Assembly (NCBI RefSeq): GCF_000688375.1
Contig: NZ_JIAF01000004.1
Span: forward strand, 1,240,001 to 1,304,000
DNA: 64,000 nucleotides
DNA from: Prevotella sp. HUN102
Lineage (GTDB): Bacteria; Bacteroidota; Bacteroidia; Bacteroidales; Bacteroidaceae
Direction: 5' to 3'
A program made the translations under genes and the position numbers. The first letter of the stretch is position 1. Every line of letters begins with the position of its first letter. Under the pieces are notes generated by a model. The model was given only the letters and a program-made list of their open reading frames with translations, had not been told where the DNA came from and searched no databases. Below, in pieces: positions 1,778-35,182 of this stretch.

Positions 1778-3769
1778 ATGGAGTATTACGGTAATAAACT
1801 TTGCGTATCCTATCACGAGCTTGTGGACAGCGGTATTATGACTAATTCCAACTATTGTTACAAGGCTTGGAAAGGTCAGATAGACGTTGTCCGTCGTGGA
1901 GGTGGTGCGAATGGCTGTTGTGCTCTGATTGCCATAGACAGTTTGCCGGCAAAATACAAGGAGGCTGTCGAGGAAATGTATCCCGGTGGCGACGAGGTTC
2001 GCATCAAGACGTGGGTACTTTCCAATTATGAGATGGACCAAGCTGCCGTTGCCTTCTTCCATGATCGCAGCAAGACAGGTATCGACCTTGACGAGAGAAA
2101 GAAACGTGAGTATATCATCAACGCCTCGGTACTGAACTGCTGCATCAAGCTCTATGAACGCGCACGGGACAGCCAACGCCTGTTCGGTGGTAGATACAAC
2201 TGGGATATGATGGCTAAGACCATCGAAACCCTGCGTGAGGAACTGGGACACACTCTCCCTGCCAGTACGCTGCGCTTCAGGAAGAAGGTAAACGACTACA
2301 AACGCAACGGCTACGGCTGTCTTATCAGCGGCAAATTCGGAAACCAGAGTGCAAGGAAGGTGGATTATAAGACCAAGCAGCTGGTCCGTGGCTTGGCAGT
2401 CTTGCCTAACAAGCCCTACAACAGTAACGTACACGAGATGTATATCAGCTTTGTCTGTGGAGAGCTTGATGTTTACGACCCGAAGACCGGAGAACTGTTC
2501 AATCCCGATGATTTCACGGATAAGAACGGCGACCCGAAGTTCCTGAGCGAGAGCACCATCAACAATATACTGAACGAGCCGGCAACGAAAATGCTGATAG
2601 AGAAGTCGCTGTCAAGCTGGAGTACCTTTATGCACGAGCAAATGCCTTATATGCACCGCCATAACGGACGCTTTTCGCTGAGCCAAATCACAATGGACGA
2701 CGTGGACTTGACGCGCAAGCTGAAGGACACGAAGCAGCGTGTTCATGCCTACTATGCCTACGATGTGGTGAGCCAGTGCGTGATAGGCGCAAGCTACGCG
2801 AGAAAGAAGGACGAGCGGCTCGTGGTGGACTGCTTCCGCGATATGTTCCGGCTGATAGCCCGTAACGGCTGGGGTATTCCTGCCGGCATCGAGGTGGAGA
2901 ACCACTTGATGAGCCAGTACAAGGAGGGGTTCCTGAAAGCCGAGACTGTGTTCCAGTTCGTGAGATTCTGCGCCCCTTTGAACTCACAGGAGAAATATGC
3001 CGAACCTCTGAACGGTGCGAAGAAGCGCAGCGTGATACACAAGAACCACGAGGGTATCGGCCGTTTCTACGGCAAGGGCAAGTGGCGTCAGGAGTATCAG
3101 AAAATCAGCGACGAGACCAACGAACTCTACGAGGACAAGGAATATTTCACTTGGGAGCAGCTGGTCGCCGATGACCGCAAGGACAACGAGGAATGGAACA
3201 ACACGCTGCACCCCAACCAGAAGATGTATCCGGGTATGACGCGCTGGCAGGTGCTGGAGGCAAACATCAACCCGAACCTGCTGCCATACGATGCGAGAAC
3301 ACTTGCCTACCATATCGGCGAGCGGGTGGAAACAAGCATTCGCAGAAACTCTACCGTAAGGATGGCACACGAGGACTGGTGGCTGAGCAGCACGAGCGTA
3401 CTGGAACGGCTGGAGCCGAACAATTACAAGGTTACCGCCTGTTATCTGCCGGATGATGAGGGCGCACCACAGGAAGTCTTCATCTATCAGAAGGGCAAGT
3501 ACATCGACACAGTTGAGAAAGTGAACACCTACAGCCGTGTGATGGCCGAGCAGACGGAAGAAGACCAAGCAGCGTTCGTGGAGCAGCAGAAGAAAATAGC
3601 GAAATTCAACAAATACGTTGAGGACAACACCATCGACAGACTGGGAGTGATGAAACCGAGCCAACAGGCACAGCAGGAGGTACAGGAACTAAAAGCCTCC
3701 GTTCCTCCGGAATACAGGCCCCAAATGCCATTGCCAAGCGCATCGGACAGAGCGGTCGCAGACATATAG
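1778..3769 (+). CDS. MuA-type DDE transposase
   Basis: This 663-residue protein cuts and joins the prophage ends during integration and replicative transposition. An N-terminal DNA-binding region (1-200) precedes an integrase core. The first carboxylate is in ITMDD near residue 307. The second falls in the IEVENHL segment near 372-374, and the third in YAEPLNGAKK near 409. The spacing resembles D-(66)-D-(35)-E, but the second acidic residue reads as Glu rather than the usual Asp. A C-terminal region with a Gln- and Glu-rich coil (590-640) would be the MuB-contact part. The MuB-like ATPase follows 25 bases downstream. Confidence 0.9.
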   Translation: MEYYGNKLCVSYHELVDSGIMTNSNYCYKAWKGQIDVVRRGGGANGCCALIAIDSLPAKYKEAVEEMYPGGDEVRIKTWVLSNYEMDQAAVAFFHDRSKTGIDLDERKKREYIINASVLNCCIKLYERARDSQRLFGGRYNWDMMAKTIETLREELGHTLPASTLRFRKKVNDYKRNGYGCLISGKFGNQSARKVDYKTKQLVRGLAVLPNKPYNSNVHEMYISFVCGELDVYDPKTGELFNPDDFTDKNGDPKFLSESTINNILNEPATKMLIEKSLSSWSTFMHEQMPYMHRHNGRFSLSQITMDDVDLTRKLKDTKQRVHAYYAYDVVSQCVIGASYARKKDERLVVDCFRDMFRLIARNGWGIPAGIEVENHLMSQYKEGFLKAETVFQFVRFCAPLNSQEKYAEPLNGAKKRSVIHKNHEGIGRFYGKGKWRQEYQKISDETNELYEDKEYFTWEQLVADDRKDNEEWNNTLHPNQKMYPGMTRWQVLEANINPNLLPYDARTLAYHIGERVETSIRRNSTVRMAHEDWWLSSTSVLERLEPNNYKVTACYLPDDEGAPQEVFIYQKGKYIDTVEKVNTYSRVMAEQTEEDQAAFVEQQKKIAKFNKYVEDNTIDRLGVMKPSQQAQQEVQELKASVPPEYRPQMPLPSASDRAVADI

Positions 3770-3794: not shown

Positions 3795-4670
3795 ATGATT
3801 AGTGAGACTCAAAAACAGCGGATACTGGAGGCGATAGCAGCCAACCGCCGGAATTATCCAAGCGATGCGAAACACGCATCGGCACTGGGTATCTCCCCAA
3901 GTGTCTATAACGGGTTGAAAAAAGGCCAGACGGAGAAAGCACTGAGTGATGCCAACTGGGTGAACATCGCCCGGAGGCTGGACGTGAACCTCCGAGAGAC
4001 GATAGAGTGGAAAGGCGCACAGACGGAGACATTCAAATATATCAGTCTGCAGATGGAGGCGTGTCAGGAGCGCAGCCTGAGCGTGATACTCTGCGACCTG
4101 CCCAACATCGGTAAGACCTATACGGCACGCTGGTATGTGAACGAACACCGTAATGCCGTGTATGTGGACTGCTCACAGGTTAAAACCAAACGTGCGTTGG
4201 TCAAGAAGATAGCACGGGAGTTTGGTGTAGGCATAAGCGGCAAGTATCAGGACACCTACGAGGATCTCGTGTATTACCTGCGCTCTATGGAACGCCCGTT
4301 GGTAGTGCTTGACGAAGCCGGAGACTTGCAGTACGAGGCGTTTTTGGAACTGAAGGCATTGTGGAACGCCACTGAAATGTGCTGTGGCTGGTATATGATG
4401 GGAGCCGACGGGCTGCGTGCCAAGATAAACAGGATGGTGGAACATCAGAAGGTGGGCTATGCCGAGATATTCTCACGCTATGGCGGTAAGTACAGCCGTG
4501 TAACCCCCGATCAGGAAGATGACCGCCGTCAGTTCCTTATGGAGCAAGCCCGTGCCGTGGCAAGCGTGAACGCACCGAAAGGCACGGACATTGGTCAGAT
4601 AGTACGCAAGAGCGGAGGCGGTTTGAGAAGAGTATATACTGAAATAGAAAAAATAAAGAGAGGAGCATAA
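3795..4670 (+). CDS. MuB-type AAA ATPase, target-DNA activator
   Basis: In Mu, the B protein binds target DNA in its ATP form and recruits and activates the transposase. This 291-residue protein has an N-terminal HTH (about 20-62, with the run ALGISPSVYNGLKKG) followed by a AAA domain. The Walker B motif PLVVLDEAGDL is clear at 168-178. The Walker A site reads DLPNIGKT at 101-108, so the two early glycines of GxxGxGKT are replaced while the GKT core stays. Length, HTH-AAA order and its place directly after the transposase support the call. Confidence 0.88.
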   Translation: MISETQKQRILEAIAANRRNYPSDAKHASALGISPSVYNGLKKGQTEKALSDANWVNIARRLDVNLRETIEWKGAQTETFKYISLQMEACQERSLSVILCDLPNIGKTYTARWYVNEHRNAVYVDCSQVKTKRALVKKIAREFGVGISGKYQDTYEDLVYYLRSMERPLVVLDEAGDLQYEAFLELKALWNATEMCCGWYMMGADGLRAKINRMVEHQKVGYAEIFSRYGGKYSRVTPDQEDDRRQFLMEQARAVASVNAPKGTDIGQIVRKSGGGLRRVYTEIEKIKRGA

Positions 4671-6976: not shown

Positions 6977-7540
6977 ATGGCAACAAGAAAGAAAAAAGTA
7001 ATCATTACCGGCGTGAGCAGAGAAGCCGCCGATGAAGCGTTTGCAACCTACGCTAAAAGCGATGCACAGGTACAGAAAATCAATGCGGACATCGAGCTGC
7101 AGTGTGCCAAGATCCGTGAGAAGTATGCTGACAAGCTGGCGACTCTCACTGAGGAGAAAGACAAGGCTTTCGACACCCTGCAGGCATTCGCCACAGAGAA
7201 CCAGGCTGAGTTGTTCTCCAAAAAGAAAAGTCTCGACATGGCTCATGGTACCATCGGTTTCCGCACTGGGACACCGAAATTGAAGACGTTAAAAGGCTTC
7301 ACGTGGGCAAGCGCATTACAACTTGTTAAGCGTTTTCTGCCAGACTATATCCGCCAGACAGAAGAGATTGCCAAGGATAAGCTGCTTACTGATCGTGATG
7401 GTAACGTGTCAATGGAGGTTTCGGACTCTCCGTCACTTGTAGAAGTTCCTATACGGCAGGCTATGACGGAATGTGGTATACAGGTTACGCAGGATGAAAC
7501 CTTCTATGTCGAGCCCAAGAAGGAGGACACCAGCGTATGA
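6977..7540 (+). CDS. Mu Gam-like host-nuclease inhibitor
   Basis: Mu Gam is a Ku-like dimer that coats double-stranded DNA ends and shields them from exonucleases. This 187-residue protein has the long charged helical N-terminal half expected of the family (25-80). The conserved central segment follows, with AHGTIGFRTGTPKLKTLKGFTW near residues 89-110, then a domain with Leu, Pro and acidic residues. The length (about 170-190) fits. It overlaps the following gene by four bases. Confidence 0.85.
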   Translation: MATRKKKVIITGVSREAADEAFATYAKSDAQVQKINADIELQCAKIREKYADKLATLTEEKDKAFDTLQAFATENQAELFSKKKSLDMAHGTIGFRTGTPKLKTLKGFTWASALQLVKRFLPDYIRQTEEIAKDKLLTDRDGNVSMEVSDSPSLVEVPIRQAMTECGIQVTQDETFYVEPKKEDTSV

Positions 7541-9042: not shown

Positions 9043-9133
9043 TATATTTGCAGTGCGTAGAGATACGTAGGGACAGGGTCGAAGTAATGACCGTGTACCG
9101 CCCCAAGGTCGCTTTTCAGCGGCCTTATTTTTA
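9043..9133 (+). ncRNA. Candidate small RNA with own promoter and terminator
   Basis: TATATTTG at 9043-9050, with TTG at 9020-9022 (20-bp spacer), matches the Bacteroidetes promoter. About 70 bases later AAGGTCGC (9105-9112) and GCGGCCTT (9119-9126) form a stem followed by a T-rich tract. Between them lie a small stem GGTC-GACC (9077-9092) and no usable reading frame. The terminator also sits directly before the 3' end of the convergent MuF gene. The predicted transcript runs from about 9056 to about 9132. That it is a discrete RNA is inference. Confidence 0.5.
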
Positions 9134-10396
9134 TATCTTCAGTTCCTTCAATACCATTTCGTCTGCTATATAGAAGAAAATTCTACCAGTACACTTTCGT
9201 CGTGCCTCTGTCAGAGCGGCATAGTATTTCGCATCATGTGTGGGTATCTCGAAGACAACCGCCTCGCCTCCTTGCTTTGTGAGTGCCTTCTTGGCATACT
9301 TCACGATATTGCCGGCTCCACCGGTTACGCATTTCAAGTCAGCCTTTACCTTGTCGAATCTAATATCGTAGGTCTGTCTGGCGGGTCTGTTCACGCCTTG
9401 CAGGTATTCGACATCATGCCCATTGTCGGCAAGAACCTTGCACATTCTCATTTCCTTGTTGAACTTGCTCCTTTCTGCATTGCTGGCCGTAGCTTCCGCA
9501 ATGCGTTCCAATTGCGTAGCCACAAGTCCGATGTCCTTTGGTGATACATAGGTTCTTTCCCATGTCTTCTCATCATATTTCAGGATACGCTCTGCAGCCC
9601 CTATGTTCTCGTGTTTTTGAGCCCTTATAAGCCGGCAAGCAGCGCAAAGTTCATTGTCAGGAATGAAAGCAAGTTTCAGTTTACCTTTGGCAATATCGCA
9701 GTCCCTGCAGCGGCGTATGGTGTAGGGGTTGTAGTCGGGTACAGACTTCTGCTCCAGTCCAGCATTGAAACGGAATATCCCCTTTGTGTCCTTGCCCGTT
9801 GCCTCTTCTCCGAGAGCCATCGCCTCGTCGTGTGGTGTGACGGGATATTTCGACTTGCGCACCTGTACAACCGTGCAGCGACAGTTCCATCCGTTCGGCG
9901 GGTAATATTCTTCCCAGAACGGGTCAGTGATGGGCAGCGTTACACGGTCAAGAGCGGCATGTTCAGGGCGTACCTTATCGTCTCCTGCAGTACGGTACTG
10001 GAGGTTGTACCGGTCGCCATCCTGCATGAAGTCCTCCCACTTGGCAGCCATCTGTGCGGAGGCCTGCACAAAATTATACTCCGCACGGAGATAGTTCCGG
10101 TTGTATGTACTGTCAATGCTTTGAACGTCATTCAGGAACTGTTCGAATGACTTTCGATTGCCGTCCTCATCGAGTAGCGACGGGAACGCCTCGTTCAGTT
10201 CGTGGAAGGTCTTCATGCCGGAGAATATGTAGTCAGACCGTTGCAGCCGCTTTCGCATCGTATCGGACATCGCTACTTTCTCAAAGGAAGAGTCCAATGC
10301 AGCGGCATGCGCCTCAATGAAGTTCCGCATTTTAGGCGTCTCCAGAATCTCAATGCGGAACTGTGCCCCCTCCACCTTGTAAAGTGTCCGCATCAT
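9131..10396 (-). CDS. MuF-like head morphogenesis protein with toxin-like tail
   Basis: MuF-type proteins attach near the portal in the head and may travel with the DNA. Residues 143-174 carry the family hallmark (RPEHAALD, then YYPPNGWNCRC). Four cysteines in two CxxC pairs (230/233 and 251/254) could bind zinc. The last 120 residues are an added domain with YDIRF.KVKADLK and an alternating alpha/beta pattern, resembling nuclease toxin domains fused to MuF proteins in temperate phages. The ATG at 10396 is probably not the true beginning. The same frame continues upstream for 43 protein-like codons to the portal stop, so expression may use a frameshift or a CTG start. Confidence 0.85.
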   Translation of the reverse strand: MMRTLYKVEGAQFRIEILETPKMRNFIEAHAAALDSSFEKVAMSDTMRKRLQRSDYIFSGMKTFHELNEAFPSLLDEDGNRKSFEQFLNDVQSIDSTYNRNYLRAEYNFVQASAQMAAKWEDFMQDGDRYNLQYRTAGDDKVRPEHAALDRVTLPITDPFWEEYYPPNGWNCRCTVVQVRKSKYPVTPHDEAMALGEEATGKDTKGIFRFNAGLEQKSVPDYNPYTIRRCRDCDIAKGKLKLAFIPDNELCAACRLIRAQKHENIGAAERILKYDEKTWERTYVSPKDIGLVATQLERIAEATASNAERSKFNKEMRMCKVLADNGHDVEYLQGVNRPARQTYDIRFDKVKADLKCVTGGAGNIVKYAKKALTKQGGEAVVFEIPTHDAKYYAALTEARRKCTGRIFFYIADEMVLKELKI

Positions 10397-10496: not shown

Positions 10497-10531
10497 AGCC
10501 CCTCGTAGTCAGAGGGGCTCAGTCGAAAAAA
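10497..10531 (-). promoter_or_regulatory. Candidate -1 frameshift signal, portal to MuF
   Basis: Read on the minus strand, the portal frame ends CTT TTT TTC GAC TGA. This contains the slippery heptamer T TTT TTC (10525-10531). After a 5-base spacer comes a perfect 8-bp stem, AGCCCCTC (10512-10519) and GAGGGGCT (10497-10504), around a 7-base loop. A -1 shift would join the portal to the MuF frame, giving a fusion of about 909 residues. The competing reading is a CTG start overlapping the TGA (CTGA), with translational coupling. Confidence 0.55.
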
Positions 10532-11859
10532 AGGCGTTTATTTTGTCCCTGTCGCTTCTTTTTGCCCGGCTTGGGTGTTTTATCGCCCTTGGGCTCTTCA
10601 CCGCCACCGTCGGGGGGTGTGGGGCCAAGAACGGGAACCTGCTGCCTGCGCTCGCCTACGGGCATGTTGTATTTCTCCTCGAAGTAGGATGGATCCACCT
10701 CGTAATTGTTCAAGACGAGCTGCTCGTAAGCCACTTGTTGCTCCGGCGTATAGTCCGCACTGTAATCCCAGTCGAAGCGAATACCTTGCAATGGAAATCC
10801 ATGCTGTATCATACGTGGGATTAACTGATTATTAATGACATCACGGAGCATGTCGCAGTCAGAATCTACAAGGTTTTGGAATACCTCGAGGTGAGTTTCT
10901 GATTGTGATAGTGAAGAGCCGTCCTCGATGGTCATTGTCTGTCCGATAATGAGTTTGGAGAGTTCAGAGTTTGCCCGATCGATACGGCGGTCATAGACAT
11001 TGAAGGAATCTCCTTTGGTAGACTCTACAACTTCGATATCCGTTCCCTGCTGGAAGATACCCCAGCCTTCTGTCCCCATATCAGCCATCATCTTTTCCAT
11101 TTTAGAGAGTTCCTTGTCATCACGGGTAGTTGTGCGTGCTATACGCATCGGCATGCCAAAAATCTCGGCAAAGGTATCCCAAAAAGCTAATGCATTCTTC
11201 TTAGGTATCGTTTGTGTAGCCGCTTTAAGATAAAGACCGAGAGCATCAGGCTGCCCTACTTCAATGAGCCAATCAACAAATGGAGGCTCGTGATAGTTGA
11301 TACCCGACTGCCATTCGTCGCCTAACTGTTTAACGACTCTACTATATTCAGGAATAACGTGTTTTCTCGGAATAAGCTTTACGCCATTATAATAAAGCAT
11401 ATTATTGGTATCAGTCATCAATTCGCCAAGTTCAATGAGCGAATGGCCCCAATAATTGGCGTCCAATGCATATTTCATAAGCTGTTTGAACCATGACTTA
11501 TTGAAATAATCAACTGCTTGTTCGTCTTCGTCGCCTTTTTCATTAACAAGTTTAAAGGAACGAGCTAACACAAAGCCCTCTCGTTGCTGAATACAGCCCG
11601 AAAGATGTAAGTCTACCTCCACATCACGATAAACGTCATAGAGACGCTGGCGGTTCGGATTGTCGGCGTTGATGGCCATCTGCCAAGCCGTACGCCAGTC
11701 GCCGATGTCCTTGCGTGTGAGAGAGTCCGTGGTGCGCTGCAGTTCCATCACCGTCTTATGGAACCGCTTTGCGTCATTCTTTGCCAGCTGGAGCGTGCCG
11801 AAAGGTGTATGCACCAGCATCTTGTTGTTTTTATTCCTGTTTCTTGCCATAGTAGTCAC
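10519..11859 (-). CDS. Portal protein, Mu gp29-like (DUF935)
   Basis: This 446-residue protein is the Mu gp29-type portal, the ring through which DNA enters the head. Visible family features are the early RQRLYDVYRDVEVDLHLSGC and FGMPMRIARTTT segments. GWGIFQQGTDIEVVE and ELSKLIIGQTMT(I)EDG follow in the core. A Pro-, Gly- and Lys-rich C-terminus ends in RQGQNKRLFFD, exactly at the putative frameshift signal. It overlaps the upstream gp36-like gene by four bases. Confidence 0.9.
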   Translation of the reverse strand: MTTMARNRNKNNKMLVHTPFGTLQLAKNDAKRFHKTVMELQRTTDSLTRKDIGDWRTAWQMAINADNPNRQRLYDVYRDVEVDLHLSGCIQQREGFVLARSFKLVNEKGDEDEQAVDYFNKSWFKQLMKYALDANYWGHSLIELGELMTDTNNMLYYNGVKLIPRKHVIPEYSRVVKQLGDEWQSGINYHEPPFVDWLIEVGQPDALGLYLKAATQTIPKKNALAFWDTFAEIFGMPMRIARTTTRDDKELSKMEKMMADMGTEGWGIFQQGTDIEVVESTKGDSFNVYDRRIDRANSELSKLIIGQTMTIEDGSSLSQSETHLEVFQNLVDSDCDMLRDVINNQLIPRMIQHGFPLQGIRFDWDYSADYTPEQQVAYEQLVLNNYEVDPSYFEEKYNMPVGERRQQVPVLGPTPPDGGGEEPKGDKTPKPGKKKRQGQNKRLFFD

Positions 11860-12587: not shown

Positions 12588-14150
12588 CTACCATTGGTTT
12601 TTTGAGGTCGGCCGACGGCCGAATCTCGGTGAAAACATTTGTTGTCTTGTATTCCTCTGAAGGATATAGATAGCTCCTTCATCGGCATCCGGTGCATCGT
12701 CGTTGCCTGCCATGCCTTTCTCGAAGGCGAGCGTCTGCTCAACTCCAGCCTGCATGTCGGGGTCTTCTTTCTGTGATATGTCATAATAGACAAAGCCTCG
12801 TTCCCAGAGCGGGCTGATGGCTTCGACGCGCTGGAATTTGTCTGGTTTTTTGCGCATGTCTCCCGTGATGGGCAGTTGGAAGCCCCGAAGATTACCTTCA
12901 ACGGTAAAGTCGTCAAGGATGATGTCCTGCATGAAACTTGCCTCCATCATGAAGCGGATAGGCAGGCCGATTCCCAAACTCCACTCATAGAGGTCGTAAC
13001 ACCATCGGACAAGCTCGGCCACGGATGCCTTTCGCACGAAAGCCCGCAGGTGCCACAGCTGTGATCTACACTTGCCCCATAGCTTCGCCGCCTTGGTGTC
13101 ATTTGTTTTCTTTGATTTCCACGACGGGTCGATGTAAAGTACCAGTTCGTCGAACTCCCACCATGCCGGACGCTTGGCATATTTAATCCACTCTTGCTTG
13201 AAGACTGTACCCTCGACAATTGGATTATGCATCATCTCCTTGTTCCAGGCACGATAGCCTACAAAGTCGGCATATTCTTGTGCTTCCTCCTTGGTCCATT
13301 TCTCGCACCATACGGGATTGCCCTCGTTGTCCACGGCATATATGGTTGAGACATGCACACTTTTTATCTTGCAGATGTTGGCCAACACCGAAGTCTTCGA
13401 GATAAGGTTGCCCACCATGATGAAGCGTCCGCGTCCCACGTCAAGGGCTCCGAACAGAGCTTCCTTCACCCAGTCGGTGAGTTCGCGCACACGGCGTTCA
13501 TTACGGCAGAGCTCGTCGTCATCAAGGTCATCGATGACGATATAGTCCGGGCGTGCCTCTCGTTTGCGCAGTCCACGTGGCGACTGTCCACGACCGCATG
13601 CAAGGAAATAGACACCCTCCTTGGTGGAAAACTCACCCTCCGTCCAGCTGCCCATTGACATCTGCTTTCCGAAGTCGGCTATGATGCGTTTGTTGTACTG
13701 GAGTTCGGCCTGAATATCACCGAGGAGTCTGTTTGCACTATCCTCGGACTTGCCGACGAGTACCATGAAATTGATAAGCCTCTTGGGCTGGAACATGAGC
13801 CACAGCGGAGTGAAGATGTCCATGTGCGTAGACTTGGCATGCCCGCGAGGCCACTTGAAGACAGCTTTCAGGTTCGGAGTGTTCTTTACCTTATTAGCTG
13901 CGGCGTTGTGGAACGACGCATTGTGGATGGTACGGATAACCTCACCCGTAACCTTGTCGCGCAGCTGCAGGAAATGAGGGAAATAGTATTCGCAGAATGC
14001 GGCATAGTCCTTCTGCAGCCTGCGAATGCGCTGCTCTTTCTGCACGGAACTCTCGCGGACAAGACTTTTCGTGTCCGTAATGCTTTGTATCAACCGGCAG
14101 TGTTCCTGCCACTCCTGCTGTATCTTCTTGAGCTCCGATATTGTTGCCAT
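12588..14150 (-). CDS. Terminase large subunit
   Basis: This 520-residue motor and nuclease cuts and pumps DNA into the head. The ATPase half shows a Walker A, PRGHAKST, at 101-108. The Walker B is DYIVIDDLDDDE at 202-213. A coupling segment, VGNLISKTSVL, follows. The C-terminal nuclease half begins LYIDPSWKSKKTNDTKA near residue 335, with the acidic residue expected of the RNase H-like fold. The small terminase gene lies 9 bases upstream. Confidence 0.92.
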   Translation of the reverse strand: MATISELKKIQQEWQEHCRLIQSITDTKSLVRESSVQKEQRIRRLQKDYAAFCEYYFPHFLQLRDKVTGEVIRTIHNASFHNAAANKVKNTPNLKAVFKWPRGHAKSTHMDIFTPLWLMFQPKRLINFMVLVGKSEDSANRLLGDIQAELQYNKRIIADFGKQMSMGSWTEGEFSTKEGVYFLACGRGQSPRGLRKREARPDYIVIDDLDDDELCRNERRVRELTDWVKEALFGALDVGRGRFIMVGNLISKTSVLANICKIKSVHVSTIYAVDNEGNPVWCEKWTKEEAQEYADFVGYRAWNKEMMHNPIVEGTVFKQEWIKYAKRPAWWEFDELVLYIDPSWKSKKTNDTKAAKLWGKCRSQLWHLRAFVRKASVAELVRWCYDLYEWSLGIGLPIRFMMEASFMQDIILDDFTVEGNLRGFQLPITGDMRKKPDKFQRVEAISPLWERGFVYYDISQKEDPDMQAGVEQTLAFEKGMAGNDDAPDADEGAIYILQRNTRQQMFSPRFGRRPTSKNQW

Positions 14151-14795: not shown

Positions 14796-15743
14796 ATGAG
14801 TAAGACAAAACGAGTAAGAATCAGCAACGAGAGCCTGAACAGCTATGGTACGCGTGTCCTGACAGCCGGAATGAATGTCGAACAGTACAACCGCAACCCC
14901 GTATTGCTGTACATGCACGAGCGCGGTCAGATTATCGGTCTGGTGAAAGACCTGAAGGTCGAAGGAGAGGAAGTTACCGGCGAACTGGTGTTCGACGAGG
15001 CGACCGAGCTGAGCCGACGTTGCAAGAAGCAGTGGGAGTTCGGCTCGTTGAAAATGGTGAGCGTGGGCATTGACATCTTGGAGTTGAGCGAGTCCCCAGA
15101 ACACCTGGTACAGGGGCAAAGCAGCCCGACGATTACCAAGAGCAAGCTCTTCGAAGTATCGCTGGTAGACATCGGCGCGAATGACGATGCCATCGTGCTG
15201 CAGAAAGACGGGCAGCGCATAGAGTTAGGTAAGGATGGCGGCACAGTACTGCCGCTGCTGTATAGTAACAACAATCAAAAATCAAAAGAAATGGATCAAG
15301 AGAAATTAGCCCTTGAGTTAGGTCTTCCCAAAGATGCCGACGAAGCTGCCATCAGTGCAGAATTGGCAAAGCTGAAGACCAAGGGTGCGGAGGCGGACAG
15401 TCTCCGCACGGAATGCGACACGCTGCGTGCCGCACGTATTGAAACCCTCGTGAACGCCGCCGTGGCCGAGAAGAAAATCGGTGAGGACAAGAAACAGCAG
15501 TTCCTGGAACTGGGAAAGAAGCTCGGTGCCGAAGACCTGAAGGCAACCTTTGATGCCATGTCGCCACAGGTGAAGCTGAGTTCCATCGTAGGCAATCAGG
15601 GCGGAGCCCCGTCTGGAGGAAATGCCGAATACAAAAAGCTGAGCGAGGTTCCTGCAGAAGAGTTGGAGAAGCTCCGTGAAGAGAGCCCCGCACAGTACAA
15701 GAAGCTGTACAAGGCAGAATACGGTATTGAATGCGAGATTTAA
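14796..15743 (+). CDS. Head maturation protease with scaffold domain
   Basis: The ATG at 14796 gives 315 residues. The first 150 or so residues look like a prohead protease, with YMHERGQIIGLV, GSLKMVSVGI and FEVSLVDIGANDDA. The second half is a charged helical scaffold (165-260). An in-frame ATG at 15291, preceded by an A- and G-rich run, starts MDQEKLALELGL and could give a separate scaffold. In Mu the scaffold Z is likewise made from inside the protease gene I. The capsid gene follows directly. Confidence 0.75.
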   Translation: MSKTKRVRISNESLNSYGTRVLTAGMNVEQYNRNPVLLYMHERGQIIGLVKDLKVEGEEVTGELVFDEATELSRRCKKQWEFGSLKMVSVGIDILELSESPEHLVQGQSSPTITKSKLFEVSLVDIGANDDAIVLQKDGQRIELGKDGGTVLPLLYSNNNQKSKEMDQEKLALELGLPKDADEAAISAELAKLKTKGAEADSLRTECDTLRAARIETLVNAAVAEKKIGEDKKQQFLELGKKLGAEDLKATFDAMSPQVKLSSIVGNQGGAPSGGNAEYKKLSEVPAEELEKLREESPAQYKKLYKAEYGIECEI

Positions 15744-15744
15744 C

Positions 15745-16842
15745 ATGTATAACAACAAAAATCAGAAAGCAATGACAAGAATGATTGCAATGTTTATGGC
15801 GGTTCTCATGAACTGCCTGGTAGGCGGCACCCTTGCCGTCGCTGCCGGTCTGTCTCCCATGACGGGTGCCGTCGGCATGAACGTACTTGCTGCCGTCATC
15901 GGACAGGCGGTTCCCGCCGGCAGTCTCCGTGTGGGCGTCTATACCGAGATATGGACTGGTGAGTTGGTGAAATACCTGCGCCGTGGTCTGGAGGCGACTT
16001 TCCTTGACGGCATTCCGGACAGTTCGAGTATCGTGAACAACGATGTCATCCACCTTGTAGAGGTCGGTGTTGATCCCGATGTATTGATCAACAACACGAC
16101 CTATCCTATTCCCCTTCAGGCTTTGGAGGACAAGGACATCGCCATCAAGCTGGACAAGTTCCAGACGAAGGTAACACCCATTACCGATGACGAACTCTAC
16201 GCATTGAGCTATGACAAGATGGCACGTGTGAAGGAAAGCCACGGCAATGCAATCGGCGACTCGAAGTTTGCCAAGGCTGCCCACGCCCTGTGTGCAAAGG
16301 AAGACACTGCCACCACGCCCGTACTGAAGACTACGGGCAAGTGCGATCCGGTAACGGGACGCCTGAAGATGACGCCGACCGATTTGCTGGACCTGAAACG
16401 TGCGCTGGACAAGCTGAAAGTTCCTGCCCAGGGACGTCGCCTCGTGCTTTGCAGCGATCATGCGAACGACCTGCTGGAAGTATCCCAGGTGTTCAAGGAA
16501 CAGTACAACATCAACCGCAATGACGGCACGGTAGGCAGGCTGTACGGCTTTGACATCTATGAGTTTGCTAACAATCCGCTGTACACCACTGCCGGCAAGA
16601 AAAAGGATGTCGGTGCCAGTGCTGCGACCGGTGAGTTCCAGTGCTCTTTCGCCTTCTATGTACCTCGTGTCTTCAAGGCTACAGGTTCCACGAAGATGTA
16701 CTACAGTGAGGCATCGACGGACCCGCAGAACCAGCGTTCACTCATCAACTTCCGTCACTACTTCATCTGCATGCCGAAAAAGACAGATGCCGGTGCAGTG
16801 ATGATGAGTGGCTACAAGGACCCCAGCCTTCCTGAGGGATAA
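15745..16842 (+). CDS. Major capsid protein
   Basis: This 365-residue protein starts one base after the protease stop, or possibly at the ATG at 15772. An unusual hydrophobic N-terminus (IAMFMAVLMNCLVGGTLAVAAG) precedes the coat body. Recognisable stretches are VYTEIWTGELVKYLR, FLDGIPDSSSIVNNDVIHLVEVG and KFQTKVTPITDDELYALSY. Its place after protease/scaffold and its length support the capsid call. Confidence 0.82.
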   Translation: MYNNKNQKAMTRMIAMFMAVLMNCLVGGTLAVAAGLSPMTGAVGMNVLAAVIGQAVPAGSLRVGVYTEIWTGELVKYLRRGLEATFLDGIPDSSSIVNNDVIHLVEVGVDPDVLINNTTYPIPLQALEDKDIAIKLDKFQTKVTPITDDELYALSYDKMARVKESHGNAIGDSKFAKAAHALCAKEDTATTPVLKTTGKCDPVTGRLKMTPTDLLDLKRALDKLKVPAQGRRLVLCSDHANDLLEVSQVFKEQYNINRNDGTVGRLYGFDIYEFANNPLYTTAGKKKDVGASAATGEFQCSFAFYVPRVFKATGSTKMYYSEASTDPQNQRSLINFRHYFICMPKKTDAGAVMMSGYKDPSLPEG

Positions 16843-28407: not shown

Positions 28408-28415
28408 AAATACTT

Positions 28416-28465: not shown

Positions 28466-30166
28466 ATGGGAAAAGTTATAGCACGTGCATACCTCTCCAT
28501 TGTCAATGTAAATGATGGAGAAAAAGGCGAAACTGCACTCACACTTGTCGTAACGCCGAATACCTTTGTCTTCCAAACCAACAACAAAGGTATCATCGAA
28601 AACTTGACGCAGAATACAGGCACGGTGAAAATGTATGCCGGCACTACGGAAGTACCCATCGACAGCGTAAGTGCAAAGCCCTACAACTGTGATGCCGTTG
28701 TATACAAGCAGCAGCTCGCAGGACAAGCTGGTATTCCGCTATATATCCTCGAGTTTAAAAGTGTAGCGCAGGGACAGTGGAGCGGCAAAGTGGAGGTTAC
28801 TGCCACCTATAAGGGACAGGCACGCACTGCCATTGCTGAATTTATGGTGAGTGCTCAGAAGTGGAATGAGGCACAGTTCTTGGCCAATGAGCAGCAGTTT
28901 AAAAGTATAATAGCACAGAATAAAGCGGATAAGCAAGGGCTTGAGAGGCGCATATCTACCATAGAGCAGGATGCTGGGAACATTCGTCTGGAGGTCAGCA
29001 GGCAGACTTTCAGTGGCGTGAATATGCTCAAGGGGGCGAGCTTGCGAAGAGAGAAATTTATCTTTGATGGGGAACTAATCGATATATACGGAGGAAGATT
29101 AAACCAAAAGCGTATTGAGATAAAAGACCACGACAGATGTGCGTATATTCATACTTATGGTTTTAGCAGTGATACCAACGGAGGATTGTATTTTGTAGCT
29201 AAAATAAATGGAAAGGGGGCTTATACCTTTAGCTTCTATGCACAGGTAGCAACAACACCTGACAGGGGAATGTTCGTCAGCAGCTGTCTGAATAGCACTC
29301 CTACAACACGCCAAACTTGGTTGCCGCAGAAAAACTTCACACTTATATCTAACGGATTGTGGAATAAATATACTTTCACGATAGAAGTACCCGATACCGT
29401 TTGCCGTTACTTGGAATGCAATATACGAATTGTGCGCAATGGCGAAGTCCGCATAAAAGAAATACAGTTGGAGGAGGGCACTAAAGCTACCGCATGGAAA
29501 GACCCGGACGTTGTGGAGAGCGTTGAGCGTACCGGTATTGACCTGACCAATGGCACCGTATCTGTCGAAGCTGCCAATTTTGAAATCAAGCATAATGGTG
29601 AGAAGCCTTTTGCTGTGAGCAAGGGAAAAGCCCTGCTGGGCGGCTGGGTGTTTGATAAAGGGAAACTGTTTTCTCAATGCGGGGATATTAACGGAAATCC
29701 AAGCACGGACTACGGCAATGCGAATTTCACTCCTGACATTGTTCTTGACCCGGTCAATGGGTATATGTCAGGAGTTGGCTCTTTCAGAAAAAAGGTATTG
29801 ACAATAACTCCTCAAAATATAGAGAATTATGCAAAAACTTCTTATGAGTTGGGTACAAGCTATGTCTTTTTAGCCGGTAAAATAAGTGCCGCAGCTCTAT
29901 TTAAAGGTACTTTTAAACATCCAATATTCATAACATTACCCGGTAATGGTGGGAATGGTGGTTTTGAGGTTGCCCGGACAATATTGGGGGAAACAATAGT
30001 GATATACAACCAATCAAGCAGTTATATAAACATTTGGGGCAGCGGCAGTAGTATTTCGGTCTATCCAAATCAATTTGCCGCACTCGAAGTGAAAATATCG
30101 GTAGATAAGACTGGTACAGAAAGTTATTATAATTACGACTGGATAAAAGGAAAAATGTTAGTTTAA
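28466..30166 (+). CDS. Tail fibre protein
   Basis: This 566-residue protein begins with ARAYLSIVNVNDGEKGETAL, related in style to the start of the preceding gene. A helical stalk follows (around 130-180, AQFLANEQQFKSIIAQNKADKQGLERRI). The middle (180-340) looks like a carbohydrate-binding beta domain ending KEIQLEEGTKATAWKDPD, a stretch often seen in phage fibres. The end is Gly- and Ser-rich. It is probably the receptor-binding fibre. Confidence 0.65.
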   Translation: MGKVIARAYLSIVNVNDGEKGETALTLVVTPNTFVFQTNNKGIIENLTQNTGTVKMYAGTTEVPIDSVSAKPYNCDAVVYKQQLAGQAGIPLYILEFKSVAQGQWSGKVEVTATYKGQARTAIAEFMVSAQKWNEAQFLANEQQFKSIIAQNKADKQGLERRISTIEQDAGNIRLEVSRQTFSGVNMLKGASLRREKFIFDGELIDIYGGRLNQKRIEIKDHDRCAYIHTYGFSSDTNGGLYFVAKINGKGAYTFSFYAQVATTPDRGMFVSSCLNSTPTTRQTWLPQKNFTLISNGLWNKYTFTIEVPDTVCRYLECNIRIVRNGEVRIKEIQLEEGTKATAWKDPDVVESVERTGIDLTNGTVSVEAANFEIKHNGEKPFAVSKGKALLGGWVFDKGKLFSQCGDINGNPSTDYGNANFTPDIVLDPVNGYMSGVGSFRKKVLTITPQNIENYAKTSYELGTSYVFLAGKISAAALFKGTFKHPIFITLPGNGGNGGFEVARTILGETIVIYNQSSSYINIWGSGSSISVYPNQFAALEVKISVDKTGTESYYNYDWIKGKMLV

Positions 30167-30184
30167 TATAAAAATAAACGAATT

Positions 30185-30511
30185 ATGAAACTAAAAGTAA
30201 TGCAAAAAAGAGTTGAGGCAGACGTGAATGGTATTGTCATTATAAATGGCTTTGTCCACGTAGTTACCTATAAGGCAGATATTAGCGACCCAAAGAATGC
30301 CAAGGTGTTGCTTTTTCACGACCATGTAGCCAAATGTACCCATGATGACGTTGCCGATGAAAGTTGTGCGGCAGATTATGGACACAACGGCTCTACATTC
30401 ACAGATGGGCGTTGGAACTCAATCCCGGATATCGAAGAACAAACTGTCGCATACAAAGGGGTACGTGATATCTATTTCGCCATTGAAAGAGGCGAACTGG
30501 TTTTAGAGTAA
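30185..30511 (+). CDS. Small protein after tail fibre, unknown
   Basis: This 108-residue protein starts 18 bases after the fibre gene and is the last gene before the terminator. It is beta-rich and His- and Asp-containing (LLFHDHVAKCTHDDVADESC) with no recognised family. Fibre-adjacent small genes are often assembly chaperones, but I see nothing specific. Confidence 0.55.
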   Translation: MKLKVMQKRVEADVNGIVIINGFVHVVTYKADISDPKNAKVLLFHDHVAKCTHDDVADESCAADYGHNGSTFTDGRWNSIPDIEEQTVAYKGVRDIYFAIERGELVLE

Positions 30512-30553
30512 ACCTTATAGGGGGAATAAAAAGCCCCCAGCCTGTTAAAAGTC

Positions 30554-30670
30554 GTCTCACTTACTATTTAACCAAAAACGCCGCAAGGACGCGACCGGGG
30601 GCAATATGCCATTCCGACCGTCCTTGCGGTTTTTAATTTTGGCTGCGCTATGCACAGTAATAAGTGAGAC
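30554..30670. terminator. Bidirectional terminator inside a 10-bp inverted repeat
   Basis: CCGCAAGGACG (30581-30591) and CGTCCTTGCGG (30619-30629) form an 11-bp stem with T tracts in both directions. GTCTCACTTA (30554-30563) and TAAGTGAGAC (30661-30670) flank it as an outer inverted repeat. It ends the tail operon. On the minus strand TATCTTTG (30675-30682) could start a transcript of about 95 bases ending at the same hairpin, but no good -33 box is visible. Confidence 0.65.
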
Positions 30671-30691
30671 ATTGCAAAGATACTAAATTTT

Positions 30692-30940
30692 ATGAAGATG
30701 AAGATAATTGAGGTCTTGAAATTTAACAGGGAGCTAATAAAAAGGCTCAAAATAGCAGGAATACGTTTAGAAGATGAAGAATTTGTGGACTTATATACCG
30801 ATTACACAGCATTGCTTGAACACGGCGAAAAGGTAACCTATATAGTTGCTGTCCTATCAGACAAGTATGCCGTGAGTGTGAGAAAGGTTTATCGACTTAT
30901 TAAGCACTTTCAAAGCGACTGCAAGACTCTTGCAGTGTGA
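30692..30940 (+). CDS. Small HTH protein, Mor-like in style
   Basis: This 82-residue protein ends with VAVLSDKYAVSVRKVYRLIKHF, a good helix-turn-helix. The N-terminal half is charged and helical and could dimerise. Mu Mor and C activators are of similar style but longer. Located outside the tail operon, it may regulate the downstream cargo genes or the late switch. Confidence 0.55.
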   Translation: MKMKIIEVLKFNRELIKRLKIAGIRLEDEEFVDLYTDYTALLEHGEKVTYIVAVLSDKYAVSVRKVYRLIKHFQSDCKTLAV

Positions 30941-31006
30941 TTTGGTTCAAAAGTTCTTTTGACTTACCGAATATGGCGAACTTTGCCGTATTAATTTAGT
31001 GAGACA

Positions 31007-31837
31007 ATGAGAAAACAATACCTTTCAGCACCGCTTCCTTTTCAGGGACAGAAGCGGATGTTTGCCAAGGAGTATATAAAGGTACTCCAACAGTTTCTTG
31101 ATGGTACTACTTTCGTGGACTTGTTCGGTGGCAGTGGACTGCTGTCGCATATCGCCAAGTACCAGAAGCCGAACTCCACCGTTGTGTATAATGATTTTGA
31201 CGGCTATCGTAAAAGGCTGGAAGTCTTACCCCAGACGAATGCCCTGCTTGCTGAACTGCGTACAATAGTGGATGTTCCGCGACACAAGGCCATCATGGGA
31301 GAGCAGCGCGAGCAGGTGCTGTCGTGTATCCGCAGGCATGAGCGGGAGCACGGATATGTTGACTACATCACGCTGTCCTCATCCATCCTGTTTTCGATGA
31401 AGTATGCCATCGAGTATGCAGACTTGGAGAAGGAGACCTTATATAATAACATAAAGGGAGTGGATTATCCACCTTGCAACGACTATCTCGATGGGCTGAT
31501 CATTACCTCCTGTGATTACAAGGAGGTTTTTGAGCGTTACAAGGATGTGCCGGGCGTGGTGTTCCTCGTTGATCCCCCGTATCTGAGTACGGACAGCAAG
31601 ACCTACAGAATGTACTGGAAACTGTCCGATTACCTCGATGTGCTGACAGTCCTCTCCAGCCACCACTTCATCTACTTCACCTCGAACAAGTCCTCTATCA
31701 TAGAATTGTGCGACTGGATGGGCAGACACCCGAACCTCGGCGACCCGCTCAGGAACTGCCACCGTAGGGAGTTCAATGCCCACATGAATTACAGTTCGTC
31801 CTATACGGACATCATGTTTTATACGGATGCCGCTTGA
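31007..31837 (+). CDS. D12-class DNA adenine N6-methyltransferase
   Basis: This 276-residue enzyme has motif X near the start (PLPFQGQKRMFAKEY), motif I FVDLFGGSGLL at 40-50, and motif IV VFLVDPPYLS near 186-195, the order of Dam-type enzymes. It would transfer a methyl group from SAM to adenine N6. No endonuclease is adjacent, so it is probably a solitary protective or regulatory methylase. The next gene, 25 bases on, is the thymidylate-synthase-fold protein. Confidence 0.88.
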   Translation: MRKQYLSAPLPFQGQKRMFAKEYIKVLQQFLDGTTFVDLFGGSGLLSHIAKYQKPNSTVVYNDFDGYRKRLEVLPQTNALLAELRTIVDVPRHKAIMGEQREQVLSCIRRHEREHGYVDYITLSSSILFSMKYAIEYADLEKETLYNNIKGVDYPPCNDYLDGLIITSCDYKEVFERYKDVPGVVFLVDPPYLSTDSKTYRMYWKLSDYLDVLTVLSSHHFIYFTSNKSSIIELCDWMGRHPNLGDPLRNCHRREFNAHMNYSSSYTDIMFYTDAA

Positions 31838-31862
31838 ATAACATTCTAATACCGTTTGAACG

Positions 31863-32501
31863 ATGAATAAATACTATCAGATACTGAACAAAATCCTGGA
31901 GCAAGGAAAGACCCAGACCAATAAGAAAGGCAATATCCGCTACTTGCTCAACGAGCAACTTTCATTGTCGCCGGCCGACCTGCTCGACATTTTCGAAAGC
32001 CACGGCATAGCCAGGAAGAAACTAAGAAATGAACTGCAGCTGTTCATGCAGGGTGAGCGGCAAGTGGAGAAATACCGCGTGGCAGGTATCAACTGGTGGG
32101 ACTATTGCGGTTCCGTGCTCGTCAATAGTTATCCGACTTACTTTGAGAAACTGCCGCCATTGTTAGCGAGGATAAACCGCGAGAAGCGCAACTCGAAGAA
32201 TTATGTTCTGTTCCTCGGTGAGACAGGCGCAGAAAGCAATCAGGCTCCGTGCCTCAGCCTGGTACAGTTCCAAATTGATGACGGAGAACTTGTTCTGTCG
32301 GCCTACCAGCGCAGCAGTGATGCGAACCTTGGACTACCGGCCGATATATACCACCTTTATCTTATGGCGCGGCAGATAGACCTGCCACTGAAAAACATAA
32401 CTCTGAATCTCGGAAACGTACACATATACGAGAATAATTTGGAGCGAACAAGGCTGCTGCTTGAAGGTGATGAGAGTATGAAGTTTGACTTGAATGTCTG
32501 A
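31863..32501 (+). CDS. Thymidylate-synthase-fold enzyme, possible dCMP hydroxymethylase
   Basis: This 212-residue protein aligns by eye with thymidylate synthase. Glu 57 and Trp 78/79 match E. coli Glu58 and Trp80. Cys 130 (APCLSLVQF) matches the nucleophile Cys146. Arg 150, Ser 151 and Asp 153 match R166, S167 and D169. His 187 and Tyr 189 (NVHIYEN) match H207 and Y209. Asp 161 in LGLPADI stands where TS has Asn177, the residue that reads uracil. T4 dCMP hydroxymethylase has Asp there. The phosphate-binding R126/R127 pair reads Lys-Asn. It is shorter than TS (264). It may make or modify a 5-substituted dCMP, or be a diverged non-catalytic relative. Confidence 0.75.
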   Translation: MNKYYQILNKILEQGKTQTNKKGNIRYLLNEQLSLSPADLLDIFESHGIARKKLRNELQLFMQGERQVEKYRVAGINWWDYCGSVLVNSYPTYFEKLPPLLARINREKRNSKNYVLFLGETGAESNQAPCLSLVQFQIDDGELVLSAYQRSSDANLGLPADIYHLYLMARQIDLPLKNITLNLGNVHIYENNLERTRLLLEGDESMKFDLNV

Positions 32502-32522
32502 AATAGAATGATAAGAAACAAG

Positions 32523-32555
32523 AAACGCCCCAAGAAAATCTGAGGCGTTTTTTTA
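32523..32555 (+). terminator. Terminator after the cargo genes
   Basis: AACGCC (32524-32529) and GGCGTT (32544-32549) form a short GC stem followed by seven T residues, 22 bases after the stop at 32501. It ends the last prophage operon before the right end. Confidence 0.75.
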
Positions 32556-32578
32556 TTGGGAGGGGGGAACCTAAAAAA

Positions 32579-32649
32579 GAACGTTTCGTTTTACGAGGCA
32601 GAACGCTTTGTTTTATTTTTTCGGAACGCTTCGTTTTACGGATTATACA
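32579..32649. repeat. Right prophage end with three transposase-site repeats
   Basis: Three direct copies of GAACG(C/T)TT(C/T)GTTTTA lie at 32579-32595, 32601-32617 and 32624-32640, spaced 22 and 23 bp. They resemble the repeated MuA sites at Mu ends. The terminal CA at 32648-32649 fits the 5'-TG...CA-3' rule and places the last prophage base at 32649. The following host bases are TAGCG, a possible 5-bp target duplication to be matched at the left end. Confidence 0.75.
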
Positions 32650-33683
32650 TAGCGCAGAGGTTCGCGGGCCGACATGCCGATTTCTGTATTGTCATCGAGC
32701 TTCAGACTCGACATCGGAAACATATAGCTGCCCGAACTTACCCAACCACGTTTTACGGTTTTGCCCTTCTGCGCCTTGATCAGAATGGCTGTGGCAGCCC
32801 CTTTGTCCTTGTACTCCACAAATCCTCCGGCGTTTATGCGCATACCCAAGTCGTCCATTTTCATCATTTTCATCATCTGCTCGGGCATTCCTTGAAGCAT
32901 TTTGAGCATACCAGCAGGCATTGCGTCCTCAATATATTTTTCCACGGTAATAGTCCATCCCGCGAGTTCGGCAGAAGTGAAACCCTTTTCAATGACGATG
33001 TTCTGTGGTTTCTCCTTTGGCAAAGCCTTTCCGGTCTTGCTTTCAAACATAGCCAACTTTGGAGGATACTCGTCGATGGTAAACTTCTGAAGTTCAATGG
33101 CGAGTGGCAATTCGTGAACTTTGTCGTAGCTGTCGAGCGCACGCCATTCCGGATTCCCTTCTTCGCAATACATCTTAAGGCGTTTCATATCGACAGAACC
33201 CAATACGCCACAGGTTAGGAATATGAATAGTCCCAGATGGCTCACGAGAGAGGGAATGAAACGTTTCTGAAAATGCACGAGCTGATAGATGCCAACTTCC
33301 GCCACGATGATGGTATTCCAGAGATAGATGAGCACGAACGGCCAGAAAGAGAGGATACGGCTCAGTCCAATCGGCTCCATTGCGAGATGCCCTTCGGGCA
33401 CTTGGCGTGTCAATCCCATAATGACTGTGAGGATAGCTGCCGTTGCCAATGCTGGAACGGCAGCTTCGGTCTGTGCCATAAATCGGAAGATATAGGCTTT
33501 GGAGCGCAGCATATAGAAAAGCACAAGCGCAGCGATGAGTAGGGCGAGTGCAATGATGTTGGCGGGCCACATAAAGAAACGCCACTCTACGGGGCCTATT
33601 GAGGCTTGTAAAAGGGCTCCTGTAATCAGAAGCCCTATACAGATTGCGATACCTTCGCGATATTTCCAAGGTTTATTCCACAT
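32643..33683 (-). pseudogene. resB-like cytochrome c biogenesis gene cut by prophage
   Basis: ResB works with CcsA to deliver haem to apocytochromes c outside the membrane. The 346 residues here show N-terminal membrane helices, then periplasmic WRALDSYDKVHELPLAI and GFVEYKDKGAATA segments. They stop at MSAREPLRYV. In complete ResB proteins this is followed by SRI-type strands and a last membrane helix, which are missing. The terminal Val codon and TAA come from prophage bases (TGTATAA on the minus strand). It follows nrfA by 4 bases. Confidence 0.8.
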
Positions 33684-33687
33684 CTTT

Positions 33688-35182
33688 CTACATTGGTTTA
33701 GTGATGAAACGTCCCTTTTCCTTAGCTGTTGCTATCCACTTTGGAACGGTGGTCTCAAGGAAGCGTTTCTTGTTTTCCCTGTTTTGGGGCATATCAAGGC
33801 CAATGTAAGCCTGAGCTTTTTCCTTTGTAGTGATGTCGGGCAATGGCACATCGCCTGTGAATCCGTGCTTAGCCAACACTTTGGCAATGCGGAAGCGTGC
33901 CTGATTTGCATAGCCGAGAGCGTCGCCCAGCAAGCGGGTAATTTCCTGTGGAGCGTGGAAACTTGCACCGTGGCTTGCCACAGCATAGTCCCAACGCCAC
34001 TGGCTCTTGCGAATGTCCTTGAGAGCTTCCTCCATTTCGGCTTCCGTAGCTCCCTTGTCCCACGCAAACTTAGCCTCAATGTGTGCTGCCGCAAGTGCTT
34101 TCTCTACCTGATTGCGCACGTGGAACACCTTTTCCTGGCGTTCATAAACGTTCTGGCGCAGCGTTTCTGCATCCTGACGGTGACAGGTCTGGCAGGTTCT
34201 GTCAATCTTTGCCAATGGCGAAGTGATGTGATGATCGGTAAATTTTACGCCACCTTCCTGTTTGTAAGGCATGTGGCAGTCGGCACAGCTTACGCCACGC
34301 TGTCCGTGAATGCCCTGCTTGAATATCTCGTAACCCGGGTGTTGACCCTTCAGTATCTTGGCTTTTGACAATGGATTGATGTAGTCGTAGAAGCCCGGAG
34401 AGTCATAGTACTCTTCAGCAGCCTCGCAAGTGAGTCCCTTGTCTTGTGGGAACTTGAGGTATTGGCCGTTCTCCTTCTCGAAATAATATTCTGTATGGCA
34501 CTGGGCACAAACGAGCGAGCGTATTTCCTGATGGCTTGCTTTCCTCACGTCCTTGCCGGCACGTGCCCACGCTTCATAGAGAGCCGGGCGGGCAGGCTTG
34601 AGATCCATCGTGCGGGCATCGTGGCAATCGGAGCATCCTACGGTGTTCATCATCTGGCTGCCGTGGTCGCTCCATTTTGCGGCATAGAAAGCATTGCTGC
34701 CCATTTCACGCATCAGGCGTGGCACGTCCGGACCTTTACACGTCCAGCAAGTGCCCGGCTGCATTTCCGTCTCGTCGATGCCCGGAGCACCGGTGCGCAG
34801 AATCCTTGGTTACATCCTCAATGGCGTGGCGATGCCCGCGTGGGGTGTTGTAATCGCGGGAGAAAGCGTATCCCGCCCAGAGAATCACCATTTCAGGACG
34901 TTCTGCCAGTACATCTACTTCCTGTGAGGAATTGTATTTGCTCACAAATGAAGTGTCTTCGGTCATAGCCCAAGTTTGATATTCACGAGGAAAATCTTCA
35001 GCAAACTTCTCGTTCTGCGATACAATGCTGTCGGTCATAACGGTGCGCCGGTTGTTGAACACCGAGGCGACCTCTGCTCTACGTTCCAAAAGCGATGAAC
35101 AGAGCATACCCAAAATAAAGATGATGACCATAGCCCCACCAAAGAGCAGCCATCCTTGCCATTTCTTTAATTGTTTTGCCAT
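33688..35182 (-). pseudogene. nrfA: nrfA cytochrome c nitrite reductase, frameshifted
   Basis: NrfA reduces nitrite to ammonium with five haems. The N-terminal frame (from 35182) has a membrane anchor and ends correctly at AIEDVTK, then loses register. The other frame resumes at ILRTGAPGIDETEMQPG and carries CWTCK (the Lys-ligated catalytic haem) and four CxxCH sites down to 33688. The breakpoint is at 34804-34808, where an extra G (minus strand) seems present in ACCAAGGATT. Either a real 1-base insertion or a sequencing error would explain it. Confidence 0.85.

Follow-up and report, generated by a model that had tools for sequence, protein, structure and literature searches.

The N177D substitution (numbering of E. 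coli ThyA) switches thymidylate synthase (TS) from dUMP to dCMP and yields 5-methyl-dCMP, and according to the same source positions 177 and 147 are the top markers of modified phage contigs, with Asp177 marking the cytosine-modified ones (PMC8670742). Asp at 177 is common to the cytosine enzymes T4 CH, MilA and BcmA, a Ser in the place that is Ser151 in the protein described here typifies deoxy-type enzymes, and one active-site Arg is supplied by the other subunit in both TS and CH, as stated in excerpts of PMC5175136. The signature of hydroxymethylation, as given in PMC6400193, is an Asp (Glu in some phages) three residues before the catalytic Cys together with a Ser (or Thr) two residues before a Tyr. 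According to the same text, T4 dCMP hydroxymethylase is without the TS tail, which in TS seals the site and contacts folate, and its D145N variant forms no product (PMC6400193).

Hankyphages are described in PMC12135933, a study that includes nanopore sequencing, as widespread transposable phages of Bacteroides. The record of hankyphage p00 (BK010646, 41030-41668) contains a gene labelled 'thymidylate synthase' which belongs to the same subfamily as the gene described here (85% identity), and which forms with a 'DNA methyltransferase N6' the last two genes at the right end; the order of the two is reversed compared with our prophage, and hankyphage p00 also has a diversity-generating retroelement. 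The initial annotation had taken the arrangement to be undescribed, but since the gene is already deposited in hankyphage p00 and is carried as 'thymidylate synthase' in Bacteroides phage records, its presence is not new. The word 'thymidylate' was not found in the main text, as far as it was accessible, of the hankyphage papers PMC12135933, PMC6199706 and PMC10367356, and among openly licensed PMC papers we found none on this hankyphage gene and none for PDB entry 9IQC.

The window, by which we mean the whole analysed stretch of 64,000 nucleotides from Prevotella sp. HUN102, contains a Mu-like prophage whose left end lies before the window start and whose last gene is an ATG-initiated frame of 212 codons, here called TSL (Table 1). 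The transposase, Gam, Mu F-like, portal, terminase and head genes bear out the temperate Mu-like setting that had been proposed. Downstream of the three TSL copies in the same genome (C4:1148478, C4:1271863, which is the window copy, and C3:299670) the sequences agree up to GGATTATAC at window position 32648 and then diverge, and the comparison of prophage left ends gave no match in the stretches taken. A megablast search of window 14500-32800 against phages returned a single match with 3% coverage. The small phrog_17790 gene product appears helix-turn-helix-like by eye, and the adenine methyltransferase next to TSL also matches the PADLOC type II MTase (E 5.9e-51).

Table 1. Prophage features in the window, with the evidence for each.
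Feature	Position	Strand	Basis
MuA-like transposase, same prophage	1778..3769	+	phrog_310 E 1.3e-59; no Pfam match at E 0.01
AAA ATPase, MuB-like by position	3795..4670	+	PF13401 E 8.8e-13; order as in hankyphage
Mu Gam-like end-protection protein	6977..7540	+	PF07352 E 8.3e-38
Mu F-like head protein	9131..10396	-	PF04233 E 1.4e-15
Mu-type portal protein	10519..11859	-	PF06074 E 4.2e-78
Terminase large subunit	12588..14150	-	phrog_38 E 2.1e-73
Major head protein	15676..16842	+	phrog_267 E 1e-45
phrog_17790 gene, 82 aa, function not assigned, heads right-end cassette	30692..30940	+	phrog_17790 E 9.6e-41
D12-class N6-adenine DNA methyltransferase, 276 aa, next upstream of TSL	31007..31837	+	PF02086 30 bits, cut-off 22
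TSL, short thymidylate-synthase-fold protein	31863..32501	+	Glu57, Cys130, Arg150, Asp153, Asp161, His187, Tyr189
Hairpin then T run after TSL, probable terminator	32524..32556	+	by eye
Prophage right end: three AACGYTTYGTTTTA-type repeats and terminal GGATTATAC	32580..32648	.	three-copy comparison

Some other features of the surroundings may be mentioned. A long inverted repeat was seen by eye at about 30553-30670, in the interval that separates the tail genes from the phrog_17790 gene. Host ORF 32643-33683 (-) adjoins the prophage, and its final codons and stop codon are supplied by the phage right-end sequence, which points to the probable interruption of a host gene by the insertion. Beyond it, a cytochrome gene that is NrfA-like by eye is split into two overlapping frames, 34736-35182 and 33688-34764 (-), by a frameshift or an assembly error.

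That TSL has the TS fold, as the initial annotation held, is supported by matches to PF00303 (E 2.7e-20), to phrog_160 (E 8.3e-29) and, with residues 1-201, to E. coli TS structures (E about 1e-13). The match over most of the protein and the spacing of the Cys, Glu, Arg, Asp, His and Tyr residues place it, to judge from sequence, in the TS superfamily, while its score against the NCBIfam TS models is at most 61 bits, with model cut-offs from 108. The annotated catalytic residues indeed align at TS spacings: TSL Glu57, Trp79, Cys130, Gln149 and Arg150 correspond to E58, W80, C146, Q165 and R166 of E. coli ThyA, Ser151, Asp153, Gly157, His187 and Tyr189 to S167, D169, G173, H207 and Y209, and the distances Cys130-Arg150 (20), Asp153-Asp161 (8) and Cys130-Asp161 (31) are equal in the two proteins. 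The uracil-reading N177 aligns with Asp161, as had been noticed, and the residue is Asp in 250 of 250 aligned TSL sequences. In 29 TS rows, hand-picked from 10 of 52 genome ThyA sequences besides that of the host, 6 of 80 viral relatives of E. coli ThyA and others, this position is Asn in 27 and Asp in two (phage KF-1 and Huwbert gp67).

Further differences from E. coli ThyA are L143Q, H147L and Lys (in some members Arg) for R21. The change of His147 to Leu was considered as a cytosine marker and dropped because B. subtilis ThyA has Val at that place. With 212 residues compared with 264 in E. coli ThyA, TSL is 52 residues shorter, close to the shortening of about 50 first noted, and only 22-25 residues follow Tyr189 in the 250 rows (55 in E. 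coli ThyA and 28 in T4), so that the C-terminal tail that closes over folate in a functional TS is absent. The alteration of the phosphate-binding Arg pair is likewise real, although the register is uncertain, R126/R127 being placed opposite K112/N113, S111/K112 or Y114/V115 of TSL depending on the alignment, and none of the three registers has the Arg pair of the TS clamp. RR occurs in 10 of 250 rows, solely through an Arg at position 108, which is Lys or Arg in 248 of 250. Since the register differs between alignments and K/R108-R109 lies nearby, the phosphate clamp may have moved rather than been lost. Tyr94 of TS, which was absent from the residues first listed, corresponds to the invariant Tyr93 in two alignments, to the invariant Leu86 in two others, and by spacing to Tyr90.

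The TSL profile, built from 13 members, gave at least 347 bits with 171 ORFs and at most 71 bits with the 53 others in the loci collected, the latter being full-length TS frames of 264-333 codons from the order and phylum of the window. TSL is thus a sharply separated subfamily of TS-fold proteins. The most distant members seen have 67-75% identity to sequence P0001. Of 550 matching records in the phage collection, 21 lie at 80-90% identity and 529 below 60%, and genome sampling gave TSL-scoring matches in 5 of 295 genomes for the order and in 2 of 395 for the phylum; both counts include the genome of the window. In the protein search the 8000 candidates with most shared words were scored, and the best 120 of these were listed.

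Conservation was read from 289 sequences, reduced to 249 distinct ones plus the window sequence (250 rows), with start codons picked for a length near 212. The 342-residue relative P0002 was kept out of the alignment; it scores 631 bits compared with 469 for the query itself and is perhaps a tandem or misassembled TSL. Among the positions invariant in 250 of 250 rows are R109, S111, K112, N113, Y114, N126, Q127, P129, L131 and Q135, and also R150, S151, S152, D153, G157, D161, H164, H187 and Y189. Cys130 is kept in 249 of 250 (Arg in P0039), and Glu57 in 247, with Asp in one and a gap in two. The median dN/dS of 0.066 (from the 39 of 210 pairs with estimable dS) indicates strong purifying selection, and the conservation in 250 distinct sequences together with this value argues that the features of TSL are not due to chance. 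The genome of the window has its own full-length host ThyA at C4:2053895.

Similarity to T4 dCMP hydroxymethylase had been suggested on account of Asp161. The agreement extends to Lys at position 21 (as in most TSL) and to the absence of the TS tail; however, the likeness is weakened by the hydroxymethylation signature. Asp stands three residues before the Cys in T4 gp42 and 8 of 8 aligned relatives, in SPO1 gp29 and in MilA, and in the picked TS rows this residue is Leu in 28 of 29 (Arg in Huwbert gp67). TSL has Gln127 here in 250 of 250 rows, in place of Asp145 of gp42. Nor is there a counterpart of Ser94: the residue two before the candidate Tyr is Pro91 (for Tyr93) or Asn88 (for Tyr90), both invariant, and Ser84 (221 of 250) lies two before Leu86, a place without Tyr, so that Ser or Thr is missing in every register. 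The Arg pair differs from gp42 as well, being absent or moved, and identity to gp42-like rows is 14-18%. TSL therefore shares with the cytosine hydroxymethylases the base-choice residue and the missing tail, and not the catalytic Asp.

MilA has an equivalent of Asp161 in Asp186, and the pair that marks this type of CMP hydroxymethylase (Lys133 and Ala176) is not found in TSL, where Lys112 matches in only one of three registers and Ser151 (250 of 250) replaces the Ala; Gln again stands for the Asp three before Cys. The dUMP hydroxymethylase SPO1 gp29 shares the TS fold and a second Arg-pair residue that is not Arg, and differs in its Asn at 177, its Asp three before Cys and its length of 383 aa. 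E. coli ThyA gives the closest profile: TSL lies nearer to TS (E 6e-17, 199 columns) than to T4-type dCMP hydroxymethylase (E 2e-6, 72 columns). In trees, TSL and the dCMP hydroxymethylases each form one clade, and inclusion of SPO1 gp29 and Huwbert gp67 places TSL with these two, whereas in a quick-method tree without them and without KF-1 it joins the dCMP hydroxymethylases. The placement is thus unstable, and Asp177 may have arisen once or repeatedly. As TSL lacks by these comparisons defining features of both TS and T4-type dCMP hydroxymethylase, we class it as a member of neither.

Two phage loci met in the comparison deserve mention for themselves. The 'thymidylate synthase' of Edwardsiella phage KF-1 (L392, 2489-4443) combines Asp177 with TS-like Leu143 and His147 and adjoins a nucleotide pyrophosphohydrolase and a dCMP deaminase, which makes it a candidate dCMP methylase. 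Microbacterium phage Huwbert (L397, 1644-3289) has tandem TS-annotated genes, one with TS residues and the second with Asp at 177 and several active-site residues altered.

The pairing with an adenine methylase at the right end is not peculiar to this prophage. In 163 TSL loci (133 distinct TSL genes; 8 of the 171 ORFs dropped out in gene calling) the D12 methylase family is present in 128 and the phrog_17790 gene in 112. Where at least 1.5 kb is available on both sides, the methylase lies within two genes of TSL in 80 of 95 loci and is absent in 15, or 66 of 79 near TSL when identical TSL genes are counted once, and it is placed before and after TSL about equally often (64 and 62 places). Seen from the methylase, TSL lies within 2.5 kb in 57 of 78 loci, and of 41 loci whose flanks both reach 900 bases or more it is found in 33 and absent in 8. 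This linkage upholds the earlier idea of a base-modification cassette as the likeliest setting. IMG/VR contig L002 ends exactly at the TSL stop codon and L398 at the methylase stop with TSL missing, and these contig ends suggest that TSL may be cut off by prophage tools as if it belonged to the host.

Putative DNA-modifying neighbours of another kind are found in two prophages, where an ABC-ATPase/GNAT gene and a formyltransferase gene directly follow TSL and take the place of the methylase (L112 10926-12495 in Bacteroides clarus and L149 3335-4904 in B. gallinarum; L022, L477 and L112 are one prophage and are counted so). The ABC-GNAT protein has 368 aa with weak ABC-ATPase and GNAT matches, and the formyltransferase 162 aa. 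Among 80 viral loci with the ABC-GNAT gene, the formyltransferase occurs in 62, the phrog_17790 gene in 10, where it sits upstream of ABC-GNAT, and TSL in one, which is the B. clarus prophage again. The gene pair also ends the genome of the P. gingivalis phage phage011a (Porphyromonas; 33426-35026 of 35194), which is Mu-like with transposase, Mu B-like and Gam-like genes. According to PMC7824862, DNA bases are predicted to be acylated by a GNAT that is coupled with an ABC ATPase, for instance in Tenacibaculum phage pT24, and pT24 matches our ABC-GNAT protein at 34%. We read the right end of the TSL phages as what may be an exchangeable DNA-modification slot. The transposable phage Mu has its DNA-modification gene mom at the right end too; the resemblance to TSL is one of position only, chemistry and protein family being unrelated.

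Taken together, TSL is a real, conserved TS-fold variant that is catalytically equipped, and it most likely acts on C5 of a cytosine nucleotide as part of a phage DNA-modification cassette. To the proposal that it modifies a cytosine nucleotide at C5 in a folate-dependent reaction that serves the phage DNA we give a probability of about 0.5. In such a reaction Asp161 would hold the cytosine nucleotide while Cys130 attacks it at C6, and the one-carbon unit of methylene-tetrahydrofolate would be transferred to C5. Because the C-terminal tail that would seal the site during hydride transfer is missing, the product would more likely be of the 5-hydroxymethyl type, or otherwise trapped, than 5-methyl. 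The small helix-turn-helix-like gene, the N6-adenine methylase and TSL would form an exchangeable right-end cassette, which may render the DNA of Mu-like phages of Bacteroidota less easily cut by restriction in the host. The catalytic and ligand residues are invariant or nearly so and the host has its own full-length ThyA; the strong purifying selection, the cytosine-type Asp161, the deoxy-type Ser151, the tail missing as in the T4 enzyme and the linkage to the methylase and to ABC-GNAT/formyltransferase genes also favour this assignment. Against it speak Gln127 at the place of the catalytic Asp, the lack of Ser-x-Tyr, the seemingly lost or moved Arg pair, the active-site Tyr that falls on Leu86 in two of four alignments, a profile nearer to TS, the shifting tree placement, and the loci in which methylase (15 of 95) or TSL (8 of 41) is absent.

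A Pfam scan of 31 phage ORFs, covering frames from about 80 codons in the part of the phage inside the window and leaving many ORFs without any match, returned no nucleotide kinase, dCTPase, glycosyltransferase or DHFR. Modified dCTP would then need host enzymes, since neither kinase nor dCTPase was among these matches, and the four absences are a weak argument against pool-type modification. The absence of DHFR bears also on the possibility that TSL is a dCMP methylase making 5-methyl-dCMP with hydride transfer for phage DNA, as do the N177D mutants of TS (PMC8670742, in part). The nearness of the profile to TS, the lack of Asp three before Cys and the example of KF-1, in which Asp177 goes with TS-like Leu143 and His147, are in line with such an enzyme, but the tail that in TS seals the site and contacts folate is absent, invariant Gln127 and Leu131 replace Leu143 and His147, and no DHFR was matched in the scanned ORFs, so that we regard it as rather unlikely. 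A substrate other than dCMP, either CMP or the cytosine of an existing polynucleotide, would agree with Lys112 matching the CMP-type Lys133 of MilA in one of three registers, with a lost Arg clamp, which would suit a substrate without terminal phosphate, and with the lack of kinase and dCTPase matches in the scan. Ser151, in contrast, is a deoxy-type residue, K21, R109, K112 and R150 could still hold a phosphate, and we know of no TS-fold enzyme acting on polynucleotides, all of which makes this reading quite improbable.

Phage records label the gene thymidylate synthase and Pfam gives a TS match, but a dUMP enzyme, either a divergent TS or a dUMP hydroxymethylase, is hard to reconcile with Asp161 in every row, where 27 of 29 picked TS rows and the SPO1 dUMP hydroxymethylase have Asn, with a score so far under the NCBIfam cut-offs, and with the presence of host ThyA; we consider it very unlikely. 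Little more can be said for a non-catalytic or regulatory protein, to which we give a similarly small chance. The altered Arg pair would fit such a protein, and as that Arg comes from the other subunit in TS and CH (PMC5175136, in part), pairing with host ThyA is conceivable. The Cys, Glu, Arg, Asp, His and Tyr set is nevertheless kept in nearly all 250 sequences. To our knowledge there is also no case of a TS-like regulatory protein pairing with host ThyA, which we count against this explanation.

Returning to cytosine modification, it is tempting to speculate that TSL is a separate chemical class of the TS fold that makes a C5-substituted cytosine not yet known, a base carried by hankyphage-type phages across gut and oral Bacteroidota. 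In an enzyme that has a rebuilt phosphate site, lacks the tail and carries Gln127 instead of the Asp that activates water, the methylene intermediate could be trapped by another nucleophile, or cytosine within DNA could be the substrate; this is a doubtful proposal.

With its invariant Gln at the place of the catalytic water, TSL lends itself to a clean test of the choice between methyl, hydroxymethyl and other products in TS-fold enzymes. Mu-like phages that form a widespread group in bacteria of the gut and mouth probably carry in TSL a DNA-base-modification gene under an ordinary metabolic label; if true, we know of no earlier case of such a gene with the TS fold in a Mu-like phage. If TSL modifies cytosine, the DNA of these phages would be modified, which would matter for restriction, for sequencing and for genetics in Bacteroides.
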